From the NCBI GenBank assembly GCA_026129095.1, contig JAHCIT010000016.1, positions 1 to 34,537 on the forward strand: DNA of 34,537 nucleotides. The letters run 5' to 3'. The notes below the pieces were generated by a model, which ran no database searches, had not been told where the DNA came from, and saw only the letters and a list, made by a program, of their open reading frames with translations. Source of the DNA: Deltaproteobacteria bacterium. GTDB taxonomy: Bacteria > JAGRBM01 > JAHCIT01. The position numbers and the translations under genes are program-made. Below are positions 4,376 to 17,208 of this stretch, in pieces (position 1 is the stretch's first letter; each line of letters begins with the position of its first letter).

Positions 4376-7133
<2,758 letters not shown>

Positions 7134-7137
<4 letters not shown>

Positions 7138-7745
7138 GGTTCGCTGCTCCGGAGGATGATCTGGGTGTCGGTGCCCTGCGTTCCGTCCTCGTTCCACAAA
7201 ATGCAGGAGAGCTCCATACGGCTGCTCATTTTCTCCTCGTAGACAAGCACTCCTTCGGTCTTTGAGCCCGGTACCAGCCGGACAGGAGCGAGCATCTTCT
7301 GCTGGAAATCATCAAGCCGGTCGGCGTTGGCACTCGCCTGCATTTTCCGGGCTCCGTAGTCGAATGGAAGCATAGCAATACGCAGTGCCAGCCAGACGAT
7401 GCCGAAGCTGTCCTGGCCGGGCCGGCTGTCCGGCCGGGCCGATGTGGATACGGCTGCCCGCAACGGGCTTAATGGGTGCACATCCATGCGGGTTGAAGAG
7501 AGGCGGCAGTCCCAGGGTTCCAGATCCACCGGGACGTCGCCGTGGTTTTCGGCAGTCAAGTGGATCGCAACCAGATCCTTGCGGCCGCCCGAATCCCATT
7601 GCCTCCGGTCCAGTAGAACAGCACGGAAGGTCCTGTCCGGACTCGTGGCGGCATCCGCCCCGGCATCTGGCGGAGCAAATGGACGGTACGCACAGGCCGA
7701 AAGCACAAAGACGGCAATGAGCCCCGTAATTCGTATGCAATTCAC
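7134..7745 (-). CDS. Putative lipoprotein, unknown function
   Basis: I place the start at the GTG at 7745, giving 203 residues that begin with a compact signal peptide and the lipobox LSAC. A TTG at 7781 would add 12 residues before the signal peptide. The mature part has a stretch (VAIHLTAENHGDVPVDLEPWDCRL) typical of Ig-like beta-sandwich envelope lipoproteins, where a polypeptide strand pattern such as xVxLxxxNxGxxP recurs, but I cannot assign a family. It is the first gene of the operon lipoprotein-lipoprotein-ligA-acyP. It is divergent from the membrane glycosyltransferase at 7801, with about 55 bp between the two starts for both promoters. Confidence 0.72.
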
Positions 7746-9668: not shown

Positions 9669-10184
9669 TTATCCGCCGGGGATTCCGTATTCGTCCAGCA
9701 AGGCCGATAGCCGTTCGACATTGACGAATTCGATGGGCGAGCCTTCGACGATCTTGTGCACGTCGGCAGTGAAGTAGTCGGTGGTGACGAAAACCCCCTT
9801 GAGACCCCGTTCTCCACGGACCGAGCTTTTGAGCTCTTCCACACGTTCGGCGGTGACCGGTTCGTCGCTCATCCGGCAGTGGAAAATGACAAGGCCTGAT
9901 ACGAGTTCCCCCGGAAGCCGGGCATGAATCTCGAACTCGTCTTCACCAGACCGCTGAAGCGCGGCCACTTCCATGCCCTGCGCCGCCACCAGTGCATGCA
10001 TTGCCTCTGCGAATGCCTCAAGCGAGGTAAACCGCCGGAAACCGGCCTTGTCCGGCGGCAGTTCGAGTCCACCGCCTTCTGTGCCGCCGTCCTCGCGGAG
10101 AATCGGAACCGGATGCCGCCCCACGACAGCCATCAGGATGAACCCGAGCAGAAGCCCGGCGACTGCGATGTAGATGACGCTCAT
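9669..10184 (-). CDS. Membrane-anchored Mrr-like (restriction endonuclease fold) protein with degraded catalytic motif
   Basis: The product has 171 residues: one N-terminal transmembrane helix (about 3-22), a linker, then a domain (about 50-168) resembling the Mrr/PD-(D/E)xK nuclease family. The match is in FEIHARLPG...GLVIFHCRM followed by the typical late strand KGVFVTTDYFTADV...I.FVNVERLSALL. In Mrr enzymes the core strand ends in QCK, whose lysine is catalytic. Here the equivalent is HCR (102-104), so the lysine is replaced by arginine, and the acidic position is a Glu (E85) rather than Asp. It may be an inactive or repurposed nuclease fold fixed to the membrane. Family membership is by motif reading only. 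Confidence 0.6.
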   Translation of the reverse strand: MSVIYIAVAGLLLGFILMAVVGRHPVPILREDGGTEGGGLELPPDKAGFRRFTSLEAFAEAMHALVAAQGMEVAALQRSGEDEFEIHARLPGELVSGLVIFHCRMSDEPVTAERVEELKSSVRGERGLKGVFVTTDYFTADVHKIVEGSPIEFVNVERLSALLDEYGIPGG

Positions 10185-10737: not shown

Positions 10738-12828
10738 TTGTTCGACCGGTTCTTCCAGATTCTCCAGGAACAGCCGCCTGGTGTGCTCATCGGGATGATC
10801 GTGGGTGTGCTGCTGGCCTGCGGCTTGGGACTTCCAATGCCCGAGGATATCATTCTCGTAACGACGGGCTATCTGGCTTATCTGGGCAAGCTGGACATGC
10901 GCCCCGCGATTTTCCCGGCACATCTGCCTCAGGGGCTGGCGCTGGGGATTGTGGCGACCTTCGCTGGTGTGATTGCGGGGGATTCGATCATCTTCACTCT
11001 GGGTCGCCGGTTCGGCCCGCATATCATCGAGTTTCCGCTGATCCGGAAGATCGCCACCCGTGAACGGGTGGAAGCCGCGGAGTATTATTTCGAGAAGTAC
11101 GGTACCCGGTTCATCTTCGTGGGCCGGTTCATGGCCGGCGTGCGGGCGCCGATGTTTCTCACGGCGGGTATTCTCAGGGTGCCCTACCGGAAATTCATCC
11201 TCTATGATGGCATGGGCGCGCTGATCAGCGTTCCGCTGCTGGTGTACGCCGGTTACTACTTTGGCGAGGATATCGACCGGGCGTTTCATCTGGCCCGCGA
11301 GGCGCAGCAAACCGTCCTGTATGTGCTGGCCGCCGCAGGGGGCTTTTTCGGACTCCGGTACCTGCTTCGTGCAACCGGTCTGCTGGGCGAGCGGGTTCTG
11401 GTGGAACCGGCCGCCCGGAAGTTCGAGGCCGAGCATCCGGTTCCGGACGGACATGTTTACTTTCCCGGTGAAACCGGAGGCGGAAAGGATCGAAAGGCGA
11501 TGAGCATTTTCAAGGCGTACGACATCCGGGGTGTCGTTCCTGACGAACTGAACGAGGAACTGGCAGGCCGTATCGGGTCAGCAATCGTAGATTACCTGAA
11601 GGTGGACCGGATTGTTGTGGGCCGGGATGTGCGGACTACAGGCGAAACGATTTTCAACGCCTTTGCCGGTGGAGCCCGCCTTCGCGGCGCCGACGTATAT
11701 GACATCGGCCGGGCGACGACGCCGCTCCTCAATTTTACGGTGGGTCAGCATGGCTTTCCGGCGGGTGTGATGATTACCGCCAGCCACAATCCGCCGCGCT
11801 ACAACGGGTTCAAGATATGCCGCGCGAATGCAGTGCCGGTTTATGACAGGGAAATAAGGACCATCGGCGAGATGGCTACCGCCGCCGGGGCGCCAGCCGC
11901 AGCAGCCAAAACTGGCAGGCTGATCCCTTTCAGCAGCCTCGACGAATATTATGGCAAGATCCGGGGCCGCGTCCGGACCGGCGGCCGGCGCCTGAAGGTG
12001 GTCGTGGACATGTCGAATGGCGCTGCCACCACCATCACGCCTGCGTCCCTGAAAGATCTCCCGCACGACATCGTGGTCATCAATGGCGATCCGGATGGAA
12101 CATTTCCGAACCATGAGCCCGATCCGCTGAAAGAGGAAAACCTTGAACAGTGCCGCCGCAAGCTGATTGAACTCGGTGCCGACATGGGGGCCGTATATGA
12201 CGGTGACGCCGACCGGCTGGTGTTTCTGGACGAAACGGGACGGACGGTAACGGGTGACCTGACGACGTTGCTCATTGCACTGGACATGATCGGCGGCCGG
12301 AAGGGCGAACTGGTGCTTTACGATGTCCGTTCTTCCTGGGTAGTCCGTGAGGAGCTGGAAAAGGCGGGGGCGCGCTCGGACGTCTGCCGGGTAGGACATG
12401 CCTTTATCAAGACGGCCATGCGTGAACGGGATGCCCTGTGCGCCGGCGAACTGTCGGGCCACTACTACTTCCGTGACAACTTCTATGCCGAAAATACCGA
12501 TCTGGCCCTTGTCCTCATGCTGAACCAGCTGGCTTTTTCCGCAGAACCCATGAGCCGGATCGTGGGCCGTTATCGCCGGTACCATGCTTCGGGGGAGATC
12601 AATTCGGAAGTGGCCGATAAAGCAGCTATTATCGCCAGCATAAAGGAACGTTACGGCAAGGCTGGCAAGGTAACCGAGGTAGATGGCCTGACAGTGGAGT
12701 TTGACGACTGGTGGTTCAACCTTCGGGCATCGAACACTGAATCGTTGCTCCGGCTGAATGTAGAGGCCAAGGCCCCAGACCGGCTGGAAGAAAAGACCCG
12801 GGAGCTGTTGGCGCTGATCCGGGGGTAA
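10738..12828 (+). CDS. DedA-family membrane domain joined in frame to phosphomannomutase/phosphoglucomutase
   Basis: One uninterrupted frame encodes two proteins' worth of sequence. The first part (10738-11499, about 254 residues) is a DedA/SNARE-associated membrane domain, with GLPMPEDIIL, AGDSIIFTLGRRFG and FVGRFMAGVRAPMFLTAG. This is the family of lipid-carrier scramblases. The second part begins at a possible ATG (11500) and is a full phosphohexomutase of about 440 residues: catalytic serine S95 in TASHNPPRYNG, metal loop DGDADR (234-239), GELSGHYYF sugar loop and the phosphate-binding RASNTES (numbered from 11500). The TTG at 10738 has GGAG 9 nt upstream and fits the DedA N-terminus; an ATG at 10657 lacks a ribosome site. 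The +1 frame ends in TGA overlapping the ATG at 11500 (ATGA), so a one-base error could have fused two normal genes. Confidence 0.85.
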   Translation: MFDRFFQILQEQPPGVLIGMIVGVLLACGLGLPMPEDIILVTTGYLAYLGKLDMRPAIFPAHLPQGLALGIVATFAGVIAGDSIIFTLGRRFGPHIIEFPLIRKIATRERVEAAEYYFEKYGTRFIFVGRFMAGVRAPMFLTAGILRVPYRKFILYDGMGALISVPLLVYAGYYFGEDIDRAFHLAREAQQTVLYVLAAAGGFFGLRYLLRATGLLGERVLVEPAARKFEAEHPVPDGHVYFPGETGGGKDRKAMSIFKAYDIRGVVPDELNEELAGRIGSAIVDYLKVDRIVVGRDVRTTGETIFNAFAGGARLRGADVYDIGRATTPLLNFTVGQHGFPAGVMITASHNPPRYNGFKICRANAVPVYDREIRTIGEMATAAGAPAAAAKTGRLIPFSSLDEYYGKIRGRVRTGGRRLKVVVDMSNGAATTITPASLKDLPHDIVVINGDPDGTFPNHEPDPLKEENLEQCRRKLIELGADMGAVYDGDADRLVFLDETGRTVTGDLTTLLIALDMIGGRKGELVLYDVRSSWVVREELEKAGARSDVCRVGHAFIKTAMRERDALCAGELSGHYYFRDNFYAENTDLALVLMLNQLAFSAEPMSRIVGRYRRYHASGEINSEVADKAAIIASIKERYGKAGKVTEVDGLTVEFDDWWFNLRASNTESLLRLNVEAKAPDRLEEKTRELLALIRG

Positions 12829-12831
12829 TTT

Positions 12832-15513
12832 GTGGCCGCGCCGGCGGCTGGCGCGGGTGTCGGGATGGATGAGGAAATTGAAAGCCTGTCGCTGGAGGAG
12901 CTGCCGAAGTCGGCAACCCGGCTGTTTGCCGAAGCGCTGCTGATTGCCGCCTGCTTTGCCACGCTGACCATTGCCATTGGCGTGGCAGGCATCCTGTTCA
13001 CCGGCGGGCTGTTCGAGCCCGCCACCCAGCGTTACCTGGAAGGGCTGATTGGCTGGGATCGTGTAAGCCAACTTGGGTGGTTCACGCTGGTGCTGGCGAC
13101 CATCTGGACCGGCTGGTTCTGGTACTTGTTCAAAAGCGTCCGAGAGTTCCGCTCGCTGCCGCCCGAGGAATGGAAATCCCGTCCGGACGATCTCGTTCGG
13201 CTGTTCCGGCAGGTTCATGATATTCCGTACCTGGGGACGCTGGTCAGCGTGTTCCTGTGGGTTGCTGGTGGAATTGTTGCGATCTGGTTCTTCCGTGACC
13301 TTTCCAGCTCCTTTTACTGGGTGATCCCGACGCTCTCCACCTGCACGGCGATGTCAATCAACCTGCCCCAGATTTACGCCCAGCGTGATCTGCTCCGTCC
13401 GCTCGAAAACGAGATACGTGTGCTTAACCCCGCCATCAACGTGTCCAACGTGAAGCGGCGGAACTCCATAGGCCGAAAGCTCAGGAGCGGACTGTTCGGG
13501 CTGCTTCTCTTCACGCTCGGGGTCGGATTTCTCGTCTCGTTCGTGGTGGTAGAGCGGTTCCGTGTGCAGGACCGGGTGGAGCGGCTCGACAGCCTCCTTC
13601 CGCTTTTTGCCGACTGGGTGCAGAGGGCACAGCCGTCGGATTTTTCTCCGTCTGAGCGGGAACGATGGACCGGACCACTCGGCCGGTTTCATACGGGAAG
13701 CCGTGCGGGGCCGGTTTTATATGACCTGACCGACGGGATTTTCCTGGTGAATGTTCCTGGCGTTGCCGAAGACAGTGCCACCGTGGAGATCATGCAGCGC
13801 GCCCAGGAGCAGTATGAGGAAGACTACCGGCATGGAGTTACCTTCCATTCACTTCCGGAAAGCATTTTTGACGAATTCGGCCTTCAGCACCGCTATCTTC
13901 TGGCGCTGGCCGAATTGCACACCCATAGTTCGACGGACCTTTTTCGCAGCCTGATCGTCATTTATGCGTTGATTGCAGTTTTGTGCCTGCTCGTGTCGGT
14001 ATTCCTCAGCCGGGATCTCATTGTCCCGCTGCGCAGCCTGCTGAAATACACCCGGCGCGTCGGACAGGGGCGTCTCATCCGGCATCGGCCGTTTGTGACA
14101 GGAGACGAACTGGGCGAACTGGCCGAGCAAACCGCGCAGACGGTCTCCAATCTGGCTGACATCGTCACGGATATACGGGAAGCGAGCACGGCGCTGGGCG
14201 AGGCCGCCCGGGCGGTGGCTACCCGGAGCGTCACGCTCTCGGAGGCAAGCCGCGGCCAGTATGATCTGGCTGACAATACAGCCCGCTCGGTGGACCAGCT
14301 TGCGGCACGGCTGGAGTCCGGCAAGCAGGAGATCGACCGTCTGGAAGAAGCCGTGGAGGGCAGCTCATCGGCTGCCATTGAGCTGCACGCCACTGCCCAG
14401 CAGGTAAATACTTCCACCGGAGAGCTGGCTGCGGAAACCGGTGATATCCGGAAGGCATCGGGCGAAATGCTTGCTTCAACCGAGCGGCTGGCATCCCGGC
14501 TGTCGGATCTGGAGAGTTTCACGGCGCAGACCGTTTCGGCCGTTCAGCTTATTGAAGACCGTGTGAACGCCTTGCGGACCGATGCGGTGATGAGCGAGCA
14601 GCTTTCCAGCGACGTGCTTGCCAATACCCAGTCCGGACGGGACGCACTCGCACAGACGGTTCGTGCCATTACCGAAAGCCGCCAGCTTGTCGATGAAACG
14701 GCCGGTATTGTCGTTTCTCTCCGGAGCCGCAACCGGGCCATCAACGAGATCATCGAGACCATACGGAGCGTGGCCAGCCGGACGACGCTGCTGTCGCTGA
14801 ATGCCTCCATTCTGGCGGCACAGGCCGGCGAACACGGTGCCTCTTTTCAGGTGGTTGCCGAGGAAATACGGCAGCTCGCCTATGGCACCACCGGCAAGGC
14901 ACGGGAGATCGCCGAACTGATAGAAACGATCCAGGTGGAGACCGAGCGGGCGGCCAATTCCATCGAGGAAGTGATGGTCCGTGCGGGACAGAACGTTGCC
15001 ATGGCTGAGAGTACCTCCCGCGTGCTGGACGAGATCACGCAGAAGGCGGAAGAGTCGCTGTCGGTGGTCGAACGTACCCGGCGTGCGGTGGACGACCAGA
15101 GCCAGTCGGCACGGTCGATCACCCAGGTGGTGAACCAGCTTGGCGAACTGGTCCGGGAATTCAGTCGTCTGGGTGAAACCCAGCGTTACACCGGTACCCA
15201 GATCGCAACCCGCATCGAGCAGGTGCAGCAGCAGGTGGCCCGGGTGAACCGCGCAAGCCATGAACAGGTGCGGGCCTCAGCCCAGGTTACCGAGGGTGTC
15301 GAGACCGTGAATCACACGCTGCAGTCGGTGCTTCGGACCCTGAATGAGGAGATCGGCGCCAGCGGTGACATACGCCGGTCGGCCGCCACGGTAAGGGAAA
15401 CAGCGAGCCGGTCCCGCGAGCAGACGGATGAACTCGTGCGGGTGGCACGGGAACTGGAAACCCTGGCATCACGTCTGGACAGCGACGTGGGCCGGTTCCG
15501 TCTGGAAGACTGA
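12832..15513 (+). CDS. Methyl-accepting chemotaxis protein with multi-pass membrane input region
   Basis: The product has 893 residues. The N-terminal 240 residues contain about five hydrophobic segments (near 31-57, 80-100, 133-153, 160-178, 210-232). Then come an extracytoplasmic stretch (about 235-395), another membrane helix (395-415), a HAMP domain and a long coiled-coil signalling domain. The signalling tip LLSLNASILAAQAGEHGASF...VAEEIRQLA is the MCP hairpin, but L661 and Q664 replace the usual Glu and Arg of NASIEAARAGE. By family knowledge it would feed an unknown signal to CheA through CheW. No cache or PAS sensor is recognised. The GTG at 12832 follows the phosphomutase stop by 3 nt with GGGGG before it; an ATG at 12865 is the alternative. 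Confidence 0.9.
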   Translation: MAAPAAGAGVGMDEEIESLSLEELPKSATRLFAEALLIAACFATLTIAIGVAGILFTGGLFEPATQRYLEGLIGWDRVSQLGWFTLVLATIWTGWFWYLFKSVREFRSLPPEEWKSRPDDLVRLFRQVHDIPYLGTLVSVFLWVAGGIVAIWFFRDLSSSFYWVIPTLSTCTAMSINLPQIYAQRDLLRPLENEIRVLNPAINVSNVKRRNSIGRKLRSGLFGLLLFTLGVGFLVSFVVVERFRVQDRVERLDSLLPLFADWVQRAQPSDFSPSERERWTGPLGRFHTGSRAGPVLYDLTDGIFLVNVPGVAEDSATVEIMQRAQEQYEEDYRHGVTFHSLPESIFDEFGLQHRYLLALAELHTHSSTDLFRSLIVIYALIAVLCLLVSVFLSRDLIVPLRSLLKYTRRVGQGRLIRHRPFVTGDELGELAEQTAQTVSNLADIVTDIREASTALGEAARAVATRSVTLSEASRGQYDLADNTARSVDQLAARLESGKQEIDRLEEAVEGSSSAAIELHATAQQVNTSTGELAAETGDIRKASGEMLASTERLASRLSDLESFTAQTVSAVQLIEDRVNALRTDAVMSEQLSSDVLANTQSGRDALAQTVRAITESRQLVDETAGIVVSLRSRNRAINEIIETIRSVASRTTLLSLNASILAAQAGEHGASFQVVAEEIRQLAYGTTGKAREIAELIETIQVETERAANSIEEVMVRAGQNVAMAESTSRVLDEITQKAEESLSVVERTRRAVDDQSQSARSITQVVNQLGELVREFSRLGETQRYTGTQIATRIEQVQQQVARVNRASHEQVRASAQVTEGVETVNHTLQSVLRTLNEEIGASGDIRRSAATVRETASRSREQTDELVRVARELETLASRLDSDVGRFRLED

Positions 15514-15619: not shown

Positions 15620-16855
15620 ATGAGTGCATTTCCCCGCAAGCCAACCACTGCCGTACGGATCGGCAATGTCACTGCAGGTGGCGGCCATCCGGTCGTCGTC
15701 CAGTCGATGACCAACACCGATACCGCCGACGTCAGGGCCACGGTGGAGCAGGTCAAGCTGCTGGCCGATGCCGGATCGGAAATCGTCCGGATCACGGTCA
15801 ACAACCCGGAGGCGGCCGAAGCCGTGCCGGAGATCATCAAGCGCCTGCGTGATCTGGGGTGCAATGTTCCGGTTGTCGGCGATTTTCACTACAACGGGCA
15901 TATTCTGCTGACCAAGTACCGGGAATGTGCGCGGCTTCTGGACAAGTACCGGATCAATCCTGGCAACGCCGGGATGGGCAAGCGCGAAAACGCCAATTTT
16001 CGTGCCATGATCGAGACAGCCATCGAGTTTGGAAAACCCGTACGCATTGGCGTCAACGGCGGCTCGCTGGACCAGAACCTGCTTACAAGGCTCATGGACG
16101 AGAACACCGCCTCGCCGGAGCCCCGGTCGGCGGGGGACATTCTCATTGAGGCGATGGTCCAGAGCGCCATTGATTCAGCGAGGCTTGCCGAGCAGATCGG
16201 CCTGCCGCACGACCGCATCATCTTGTCGGGAAAGATTTCGAATATTCCTGAACTGATCAGGGTTTATGTGGAACTGTCGAAGCGGTCCGACTACGCCCTG
16301 CATCTCGGACTGACCGAAGCCGGCATGGGCATGAAGGGCACGGTGAGTTCATCCGCCGCGCTGGCAATCCTGCTTTCCCAGGGAATTGGGGACACGATTC
16401 GCGTCTCGCTTACGCCGCAGCCGGGTGGCGACCGGCGCGAGGAAGTCTATATCTGCCAGCAGATACTCCAGTCACTGGAGATTCGCAGCTTCATGCCCCA
16501 GGTGACAGCCTGCCCCGGCTGCGGCCGGACCACATCGACGTTCTTCCAGGAGCTGGCGAATGACATCCAGGGGTACCTTCGTGCCCAGATGCCCATCTGG
16601 CAGCAGCAGTACAAGGGTGTTGAGGAACTGAAAGTGGCCGTCATGGGCTGTATCGTGAACGGACCAGGCGAATCGAAGAGTGCCGACCTTGGCATCTCGC
16701 TTCCCGGCACGGGCGAGGACCCCAAAGCGCCTGTCTATAAGGATGGCGAACAGATGACGACGCTCAAGGGAAAGACCATCGCCCAGGATTTTATCCAGAT
16801 CGTGAACGACTACGTGGAAGCCCGTTGGGGTGGTGCTTCCAGCACCCGGCGGTAG
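15620..16855 (+). CDS. ispG: 4-hydroxy-3-methylbut-2-enyl diphosphate synthase (IspG/GcpE)
   Basis: The protein has 411 residues, with [28 protein letters not shown] read from the N-terminus, the TIM-barrel motif INPGN and the [4Fe-4S] ligands C298 and C301 (CPGCGR) and C344, with the fourth ligand E351 seven residues on, as in E. coli. It converts MEcPP to HMBPP in the MEP isoprenoid pathway in the cytoplasm, drawing electrons from ferredoxin or flavodoxin. The linker between C301 and C344 is about ten residues longer than in E. coli. The RbfA-like gene begins 2 nt after the stop codon, so the two genes are probably co-transcribed. Confidence 0.96.
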
Positions 16856-16857
16856 TC

Positions 16858-17208
16858 ATGCCGATTGATGAGGAAGGCGAGGGCCGCGTTCGGCAGGTCC
16901 GTGACGGACGGCTTCATAGTGCCTATGAGCGCGAAATCGCCCAGCTGATCCGGCACTTTTCCGATCCCAAGCTGGAGGGGCTTACCCTGTTCAGCATTGA
17001 GGTTTCGGCGGATGGCTCCCGTATCCGGGCAGTCTGCGTCCCGGTGTCAAAGCCGCGCCATGCGCGGGCGGAAGTCGAGAGTGCCTTGAAACGTACCGCT
17101 CCGTACCTCCGGCGTACATTGGCGGAGACTTTTGCGAAGAAAAAGACGCCGGTCGTCACACTTCGGTACGCTCCAGAACTGGCGGGTCCATTTCGAGCGG
17201 ATACCTGA
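16858..17208 (+). CDS. rbfA: RbfA-like ribosome-binding factor
   Basis: The product has 116 residues with the RbfA pattern: YEREIAQLIRHFSDPKLEGLTLFSIEVS (helix, then DP.L...T...VEVS), a strand pair and ESALKRTAPYLRRTLAETFAKKKTPVVTLRYAPE. By family knowledge RbfA is a KH-fold protein that helps mature the 16S rRNA 5' end in 30S subunits. The kink motif normally AxG (as in AAGFLRR) reads TAP here. The start at 16858 is chosen because GGCGG precedes it and it sits just after the ispG stop. The gene is normally beside infB and truB; its place behind ispG is unusual, so it could be a second copy or a divergent relative. Confidence 0.72.
   Translation: MPIDEEGEGRVRQVRDGRLHSAYEREIAQLIRHFSDPKLEGLTLFSIEVSADGSRIRAVCVPVSKPRHARAEVESALKRTAPYLRRTLAETFAKKKTPVVTLRYAPELAGPFRADT

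Follow-up and report, generated by a model that had tools for sequence, protein, structure and literature searches.

A DedA domain and a phosphohexomutase in one reading frame

The stretch of DNA analysed here (the window, 34,537 nucleotides of a genome called G000 below) contains on its + strand a single stop-free frame, 10738-12828, that spans a DedA/VTT membrane domain and a phosphomannomutase/phosphoglucomutase (PMM/PGM). The first-pass annotation had described a complete DedA domain followed without a stop by a complete mutase whose catalytic S95 and DGDADR are intact, and we find the same: the frame has 696 codons, Pfam recognises the domains of both families in it, the serine is fusion residue 349 within TASHNP, and DGDADR occupies residues 488-493. 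The features of the locus are as follows.

10738..12828, + strand: DedA-PMM/PGM fusion gene, 696 codons plus TAA; open frame, with a full-length homologue (51%) in the related genome G001
10738..11349, + strand: DedA/VTT membrane domain, residues 1 to about 204; VTT_dom at 35-173 (Pfam E 6.5e-20) and alignment with E. coli YghB, YqjA and DedA
11350..11499, + strand: linker of roughly 50 residues (205-254), from hydropathy and low pLDDT; conserved EHP in G001
11476..11499, + strand: purine-rich stretch, possible internal ribosome site; anti-SD duplex of -5.4 kcal/mol, before a conserved internal ATG
11500..12828, + strand: PMM/PGM domain, residues 255-696; Pfam PGM_PMM I-IV at 257-688, invariant columns, Foldseek match to 5bmp
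12832..15513, + strand: methyl-accepting-chemotaxis-type membrane protein, directly downstream of the fusion; Pfam MCPsignal here and in the G001 counterpart

Each Pfam domain of the fusion (VTT_dom and the four PGM_PMM domains) scores above its own gathering score; for VTT_dom (PF09335) the values are 72.3 bits in the window and 72.6 in G001, against a gathering score of 33.9. The frame remains open 5′ of TTG 10738 (756 aa in total), and this TTG is most likely the start of the gene, because it aligns with the ATG of the G001 relative and has AGGAG upstream. The stop is TAA 12826-12828, and by hydropathy the linker lies at, and beyond, the point where the last hydrophobic helix ends.

The chemoreceptor-type gene begins 3 bases past the fusion stop if a GTG start is used; its counterpart in G001 (L149 1409-4036, - strand) lies about 90 bases past the stop, and in that genome a CDP-alcohol phosphatidyltransferase is encoded just upstream of the fusion on the same strand. 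Near the fusion in both genomes, in differing arrangements, lies a gene whose small product combines a hydrophobic N-terminal stretch with a restriction endonuclease domain of Mrr_cat type (window 9669-10184, - strand; G001 L149 385-903, - strand). Further along the window, an RbfA-like gene (16834-17208) overlaps the end of ispG.

Inheritance and distribution of the fusion

The sole other genome of the window's phylum in the searched set, G001, belongs to the same order and to another family, and the fusion is present in both (2/2). The G001 protein aligns to fusion residues 3-694 with 51% identity and no internal stop, and its Pfam layout matches that of the window. The fused domains align from end to end, and the alignment takes in EKEHP/EAEHP, which precedes the linker; the linker sequence is poorly conserved. 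The mutase halves are 59% identical across 439 columns and are sisters in a 137-row tree (SH-aLRT 99); the DedA halves are about 37% identical in the compared region and group together weakly (support 0.33). The proposed search for homologues of the same two-domain architecture therefore yields one in G001, and no pair of separate, ATGA-overlapping genes is found among the homologues examined. We take the fusion to be a real inherited gene, encoding an ancestral two-domain protein, because a second, distantly related family of the order carries the same in-frame join.

DedA and mutase occur together in 2 of 136 loci, those of the window and G001, the other loci having flanks of at most 1.5 kb (genome searches) or 6 kb (contig searches), several shortened by contig ends. 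A DedA HMM built from three sequences, which later recovered 6/6 diverged DedAs, matched three open frames in these loci: the two fusions and a stand-alone paralogue, included in the set because it matched DedA. Among the matches listed from 386 genomes at E 1e-60, a threshold that could pass over fusions whose mutase is very different, and from 60 genomes at E 1e-3, there is no further fusion. In a contig search the best 80 loci matched from residue 215 onward only; none of 294 matching plasmid records covers 80% of the fusion query (tblastn), and viral contigs yielded no relatives of the fusion or of its DedA half. Seven genomes of the phylum with the nearest stand-alone mutases were searched; six gave a match at 1e-110, confined in every case to the mutase half, and four of these matches pass through a stop when read back. 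Two upstream genes, at L116 and L173, are by eye fumarate-hydratase-type and not DedA, and the long open frames that precede other mutases (e.g. L045, 554 aa) are not DedA either. Locus L045 also has a tandem repeat at 5689-5940, in frame upstream of the mutase gene, which reads as HRPW repeats.

According to PMC10127716, 93% of COG0586 proteins are a DedA domain alone, and rhodanese and PAP2 fusions are known. Such DedA-PAP2 and DedA-rhodanese proteins (e.g. P. aeruginosa PA4011 and PA1209) resemble ours in having an N-terminal DedA domain and a C-terminal enzyme, as described in PMC10127716 and PMC12893004; the partner here is a phosphohexomutase, which is not named among the fusions in the parts of PMC10127716 consulted. 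No paper in our literature search was recognised, from its title or the start of its abstract, as a description of a fusion between DedA and a mutase. Within the reach of these searches, the fusion is a new architecture of known families.

Properties of the two halves and of the internal start

The mutase half has four PGM_PMM domains and the TASHNP serine, DGDADR, GELSGH and SNTE loop, the motifs of PMM/PGM alpha-D-phosphohexomutases. Its closest structural match by Foldseek is 5bmp (TMt 0.93), and phmmer finds 5kl0 at E 6.9e-87. The X. citri PGM 5bmp and the P. aeruginosa enzyme 1k35 (AlgC/ManB type) share its fold and catalytic motifs, at 38% and 32% identity, respectively, in the Foldseek alignments; unlike the fusion, these chains have about 450-470 residues and no DedA domain. 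Some AlgC proteins are said to have a long membrane N-terminus, on which a literature look-up found nothing. The general type of the mutase (PMM/PGM) is clear. Its substrate lies beyond what the sequence fixes and is left unassigned, because the scores fall below the curated NCBIfam equivalog cut-offs (best PRK09542, 393 bits vs 618). In an AlphaFold model the mutase is confident, with most blocks at 80-97 pLDDT, whereas the DedA domain and linker are poor (under 50 for residues 191-260). A poor DedA model is expected, since no row of the alignment extended over DedA, and given this low confidence we make no claim about domain packing.

Four residues, Glu39, D51, R130 and R136 (YghB numbering), are essential in the undecaprenyl-phosphate flippases studied, according to PMC10127716. 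Both arginines are invariant in six aligned sequences that include E. coli YghB, YqjA and DedA, and the D51 site is acidic, with Asp in the window and in the C8 paralogue, and Glu in G001. The Glu39 site has no acid: it is Cys in the window and the C8 paralogue and Asn in G001. In other genomes, all six near stand-alone DedAs (L193-L198) likewise have no acid at this site, which is Cys in five; the sixth, L198, has another residue there and is without the proline that usually precedes the D51 site. By its residues the fused DedA thus resembles the COG0586 undecaprenyl-phosphate flippase subfamily, with an incomplete residue set, and proton-driven flipping of undecaprenyl phosphate by it is doubtful, because the Glu39 equivalent is Cys or Asn. 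At E 10 the DedA half has no sequence match in the PDB. Immediately past the last helix the net charge is close to neutral (+1 and -1), so the placement of the mutase on the cytosolic side follows from enzyme logic.

Both fusions retain the Met with which the mutase begins, and a Shine-Dalgarno-like stretch precedes it. The canonical anti-SD sequence was used to score it. The window's value of -5.4 kcal/mol is equalled or exceeded at 18% of 623 internal in-frame ATGs in the sampled G000 sequence, and that of the G001 counterpart, -8.9, is equalled by 4.2% of 95 internal ATGs in the sampled G001 sequence. The predicted internal-start signal is therefore suggestive in G001 and weak to moderate in the window, and the stretch may be a relic of a separate gene.

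Possible roles and alternative explanations

In both genomes PF02878 matches exactly two genes, of which one is the fusion and the other GlmM (TIGR01455); beta-type (HAD) phosphoglucomutases fall outside this count. In G000 glmM lies in a cdaA-ybbR-glmM-like row, named by reading, and the GlmM of G001 is cut by a contig end. Candidate users of glucose-1-phosphate and mannose-1-phosphate were scored with NCBIfam for 7 of 16 matches. GlgC (459.9 bits) and RfbA (501 bits) of G000 are above their TIGRFAM cut-offs; a GalU-type (244.6) and two ManC-type proteins (263.1 and 131.1) of G000, and a ManC-type (229.3) and a GalU-type (233) protein of G001, are below cut-off. PF09335 matches number four per genome including the fusion, two of those in G001 being below cut-off. 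BacA is present in both genomes, and neither has a member of the other flippase family, DUF368. On contig C404 of G001 (5475-7185), bacA adjoins a gene of ManC type (mannose-1-phosphate guanylyltransferase) on the same strand; in G000 the bacA and ManC-type genes are on different contigs.

The explanation that we favour, with moderate confidence, is that the fusion is an ancestral membrane-tethered PMM/PGM, in which DedA anchors a cytosolic alpha-D-phosphohexomutase that is possibly also made free from the internal start. The N-terminal DedA domain would hold the C-terminal mutase at the inner membrane face, where the enzyme might supply glucose-1-phosphate and mannose-1-phosphate to GlgC-, ManC-, GalU- and RfbA-type enzymes. 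Tethering would bring this sugar-phosphate supply close to membrane glycolipid assembly, and the DedA half may still move a phosphate-bearing lipid. A free second mutase, initiated at the conserved internal ATG, would allow one gene to serve both cytosolic and membrane-side needs. In favour of this explanation are the stop-free homologue and sister mutase domains in G001, GlmM as the sole other PF02878 gene, the candidate users of the two sugar phosphates, BacA without DUF368, the retained R130, R136 and D51 acid, and the SD-like stretch at both junctions. Counting against it are the small number of natural examples (two), the poorly conserved linker, the Glu39 site, the modest internal-start signal in the window, the mutase scores below cut-off, the near-neutral charge past the last helix and the poor DedA model. 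A related idea, raised in the first-pass annotation, is that undecaprenyl-phosphate recycling is coupled to precursor supply; this is plausible, and is weakened because the fused DedA has no Glu39 equivalent. A further reading, improbable in our estimate, is a covalent link from lipid-carrier traffic to sugar-phosphate supply: the lipid or proton load of the DedA half would govern how active the sole PMM/PGM-type enzyme found in the cell is, or where it lies, with the internal start giving a free pool.

A partial likeness is offered by the CdaA-GlmM complex (PDB 7olh), in which a phosphosugar mutase is bound to a membrane-linked protein (PMC8573169, PMC6368335); it differs from the fusion in being non-covalent, in having a different mutase and membrane partner, and in its signalling role.

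Two further scenarios deserve consideration, and we regard both as rather unlikely. One is that the DedA half has lost its transport function and is a mere membrane anchor for the mutase. The Cys or Asn at the Glu39 site, the lower identity of the DedA halves (37%) than of the mutase halves (59%), and the other VTT proteins in both genomes would all fit such an anchor; however, R130, R136 and the acid at D51 are retained, and absence of the Glu39 acid is common to the six stand-alone DedAs, proteins without a partner that they could anchor. The other, to which we give about the same low weight, is a neutral fusion, a chance joining of neighbours whose halves work alone without coupling. The internal Met and SD-like stretch would permit a free mutase, and the fusion is confined to one lineage among the matches listed. 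Yet it was retained in both families of the order despite DedA halves at about 37% identity.

Least likely is an assembly or sequencing indel that merged two separate, overlapping genes, which we consider very unlikely because two separate assemblies share the same in-frame join. The doubt arose from ATGA at 11500-11503, which is indeed present, and from the higher GC at third positions in the +1 frame over the last 17 codons before it (0.65 vs 0.41). The excess is confirmed, but as a sign of an indel it carries little meaning: 214 of the 643 17-codon windows inside the fusion gene have one as well, and so does the junction of the uninterrupted fusion in G001 (0.88 vs 0.59). It arises because the +1 frame takes as its third positions the first positions of the real codons, which in the linker are often G, and the +1 TGA arises because an ATG is followed by A, the mutase beginning ATG AGC in both genes. 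A base lost or gained near 11430-11500 is not supported, the same stop-free fusion being present, at 51% identity, in the separately assembled G001. Moreover, real-frame residues are conserved up to EHP, the +1 frames are unlike except in the last few codons, and none of the 136 loci has a separate DedA gene adjoining the mutase. Annotation should accordingly neither split nor 'correct' this gene model.

Gene fusions often mark cooperating proteins. If functional, this fusion would link a DedA lipid transporter to the supply of mannose-1-phosphate and glucose-1-phosphate, and would offer a way to learn which lipid is moved by DedAs without Glu39. As a separate observation, the stand-alone proteins L193-L198, which lack the Glu39 acid and keep both arginines, may represent a separate DedA subgroup.
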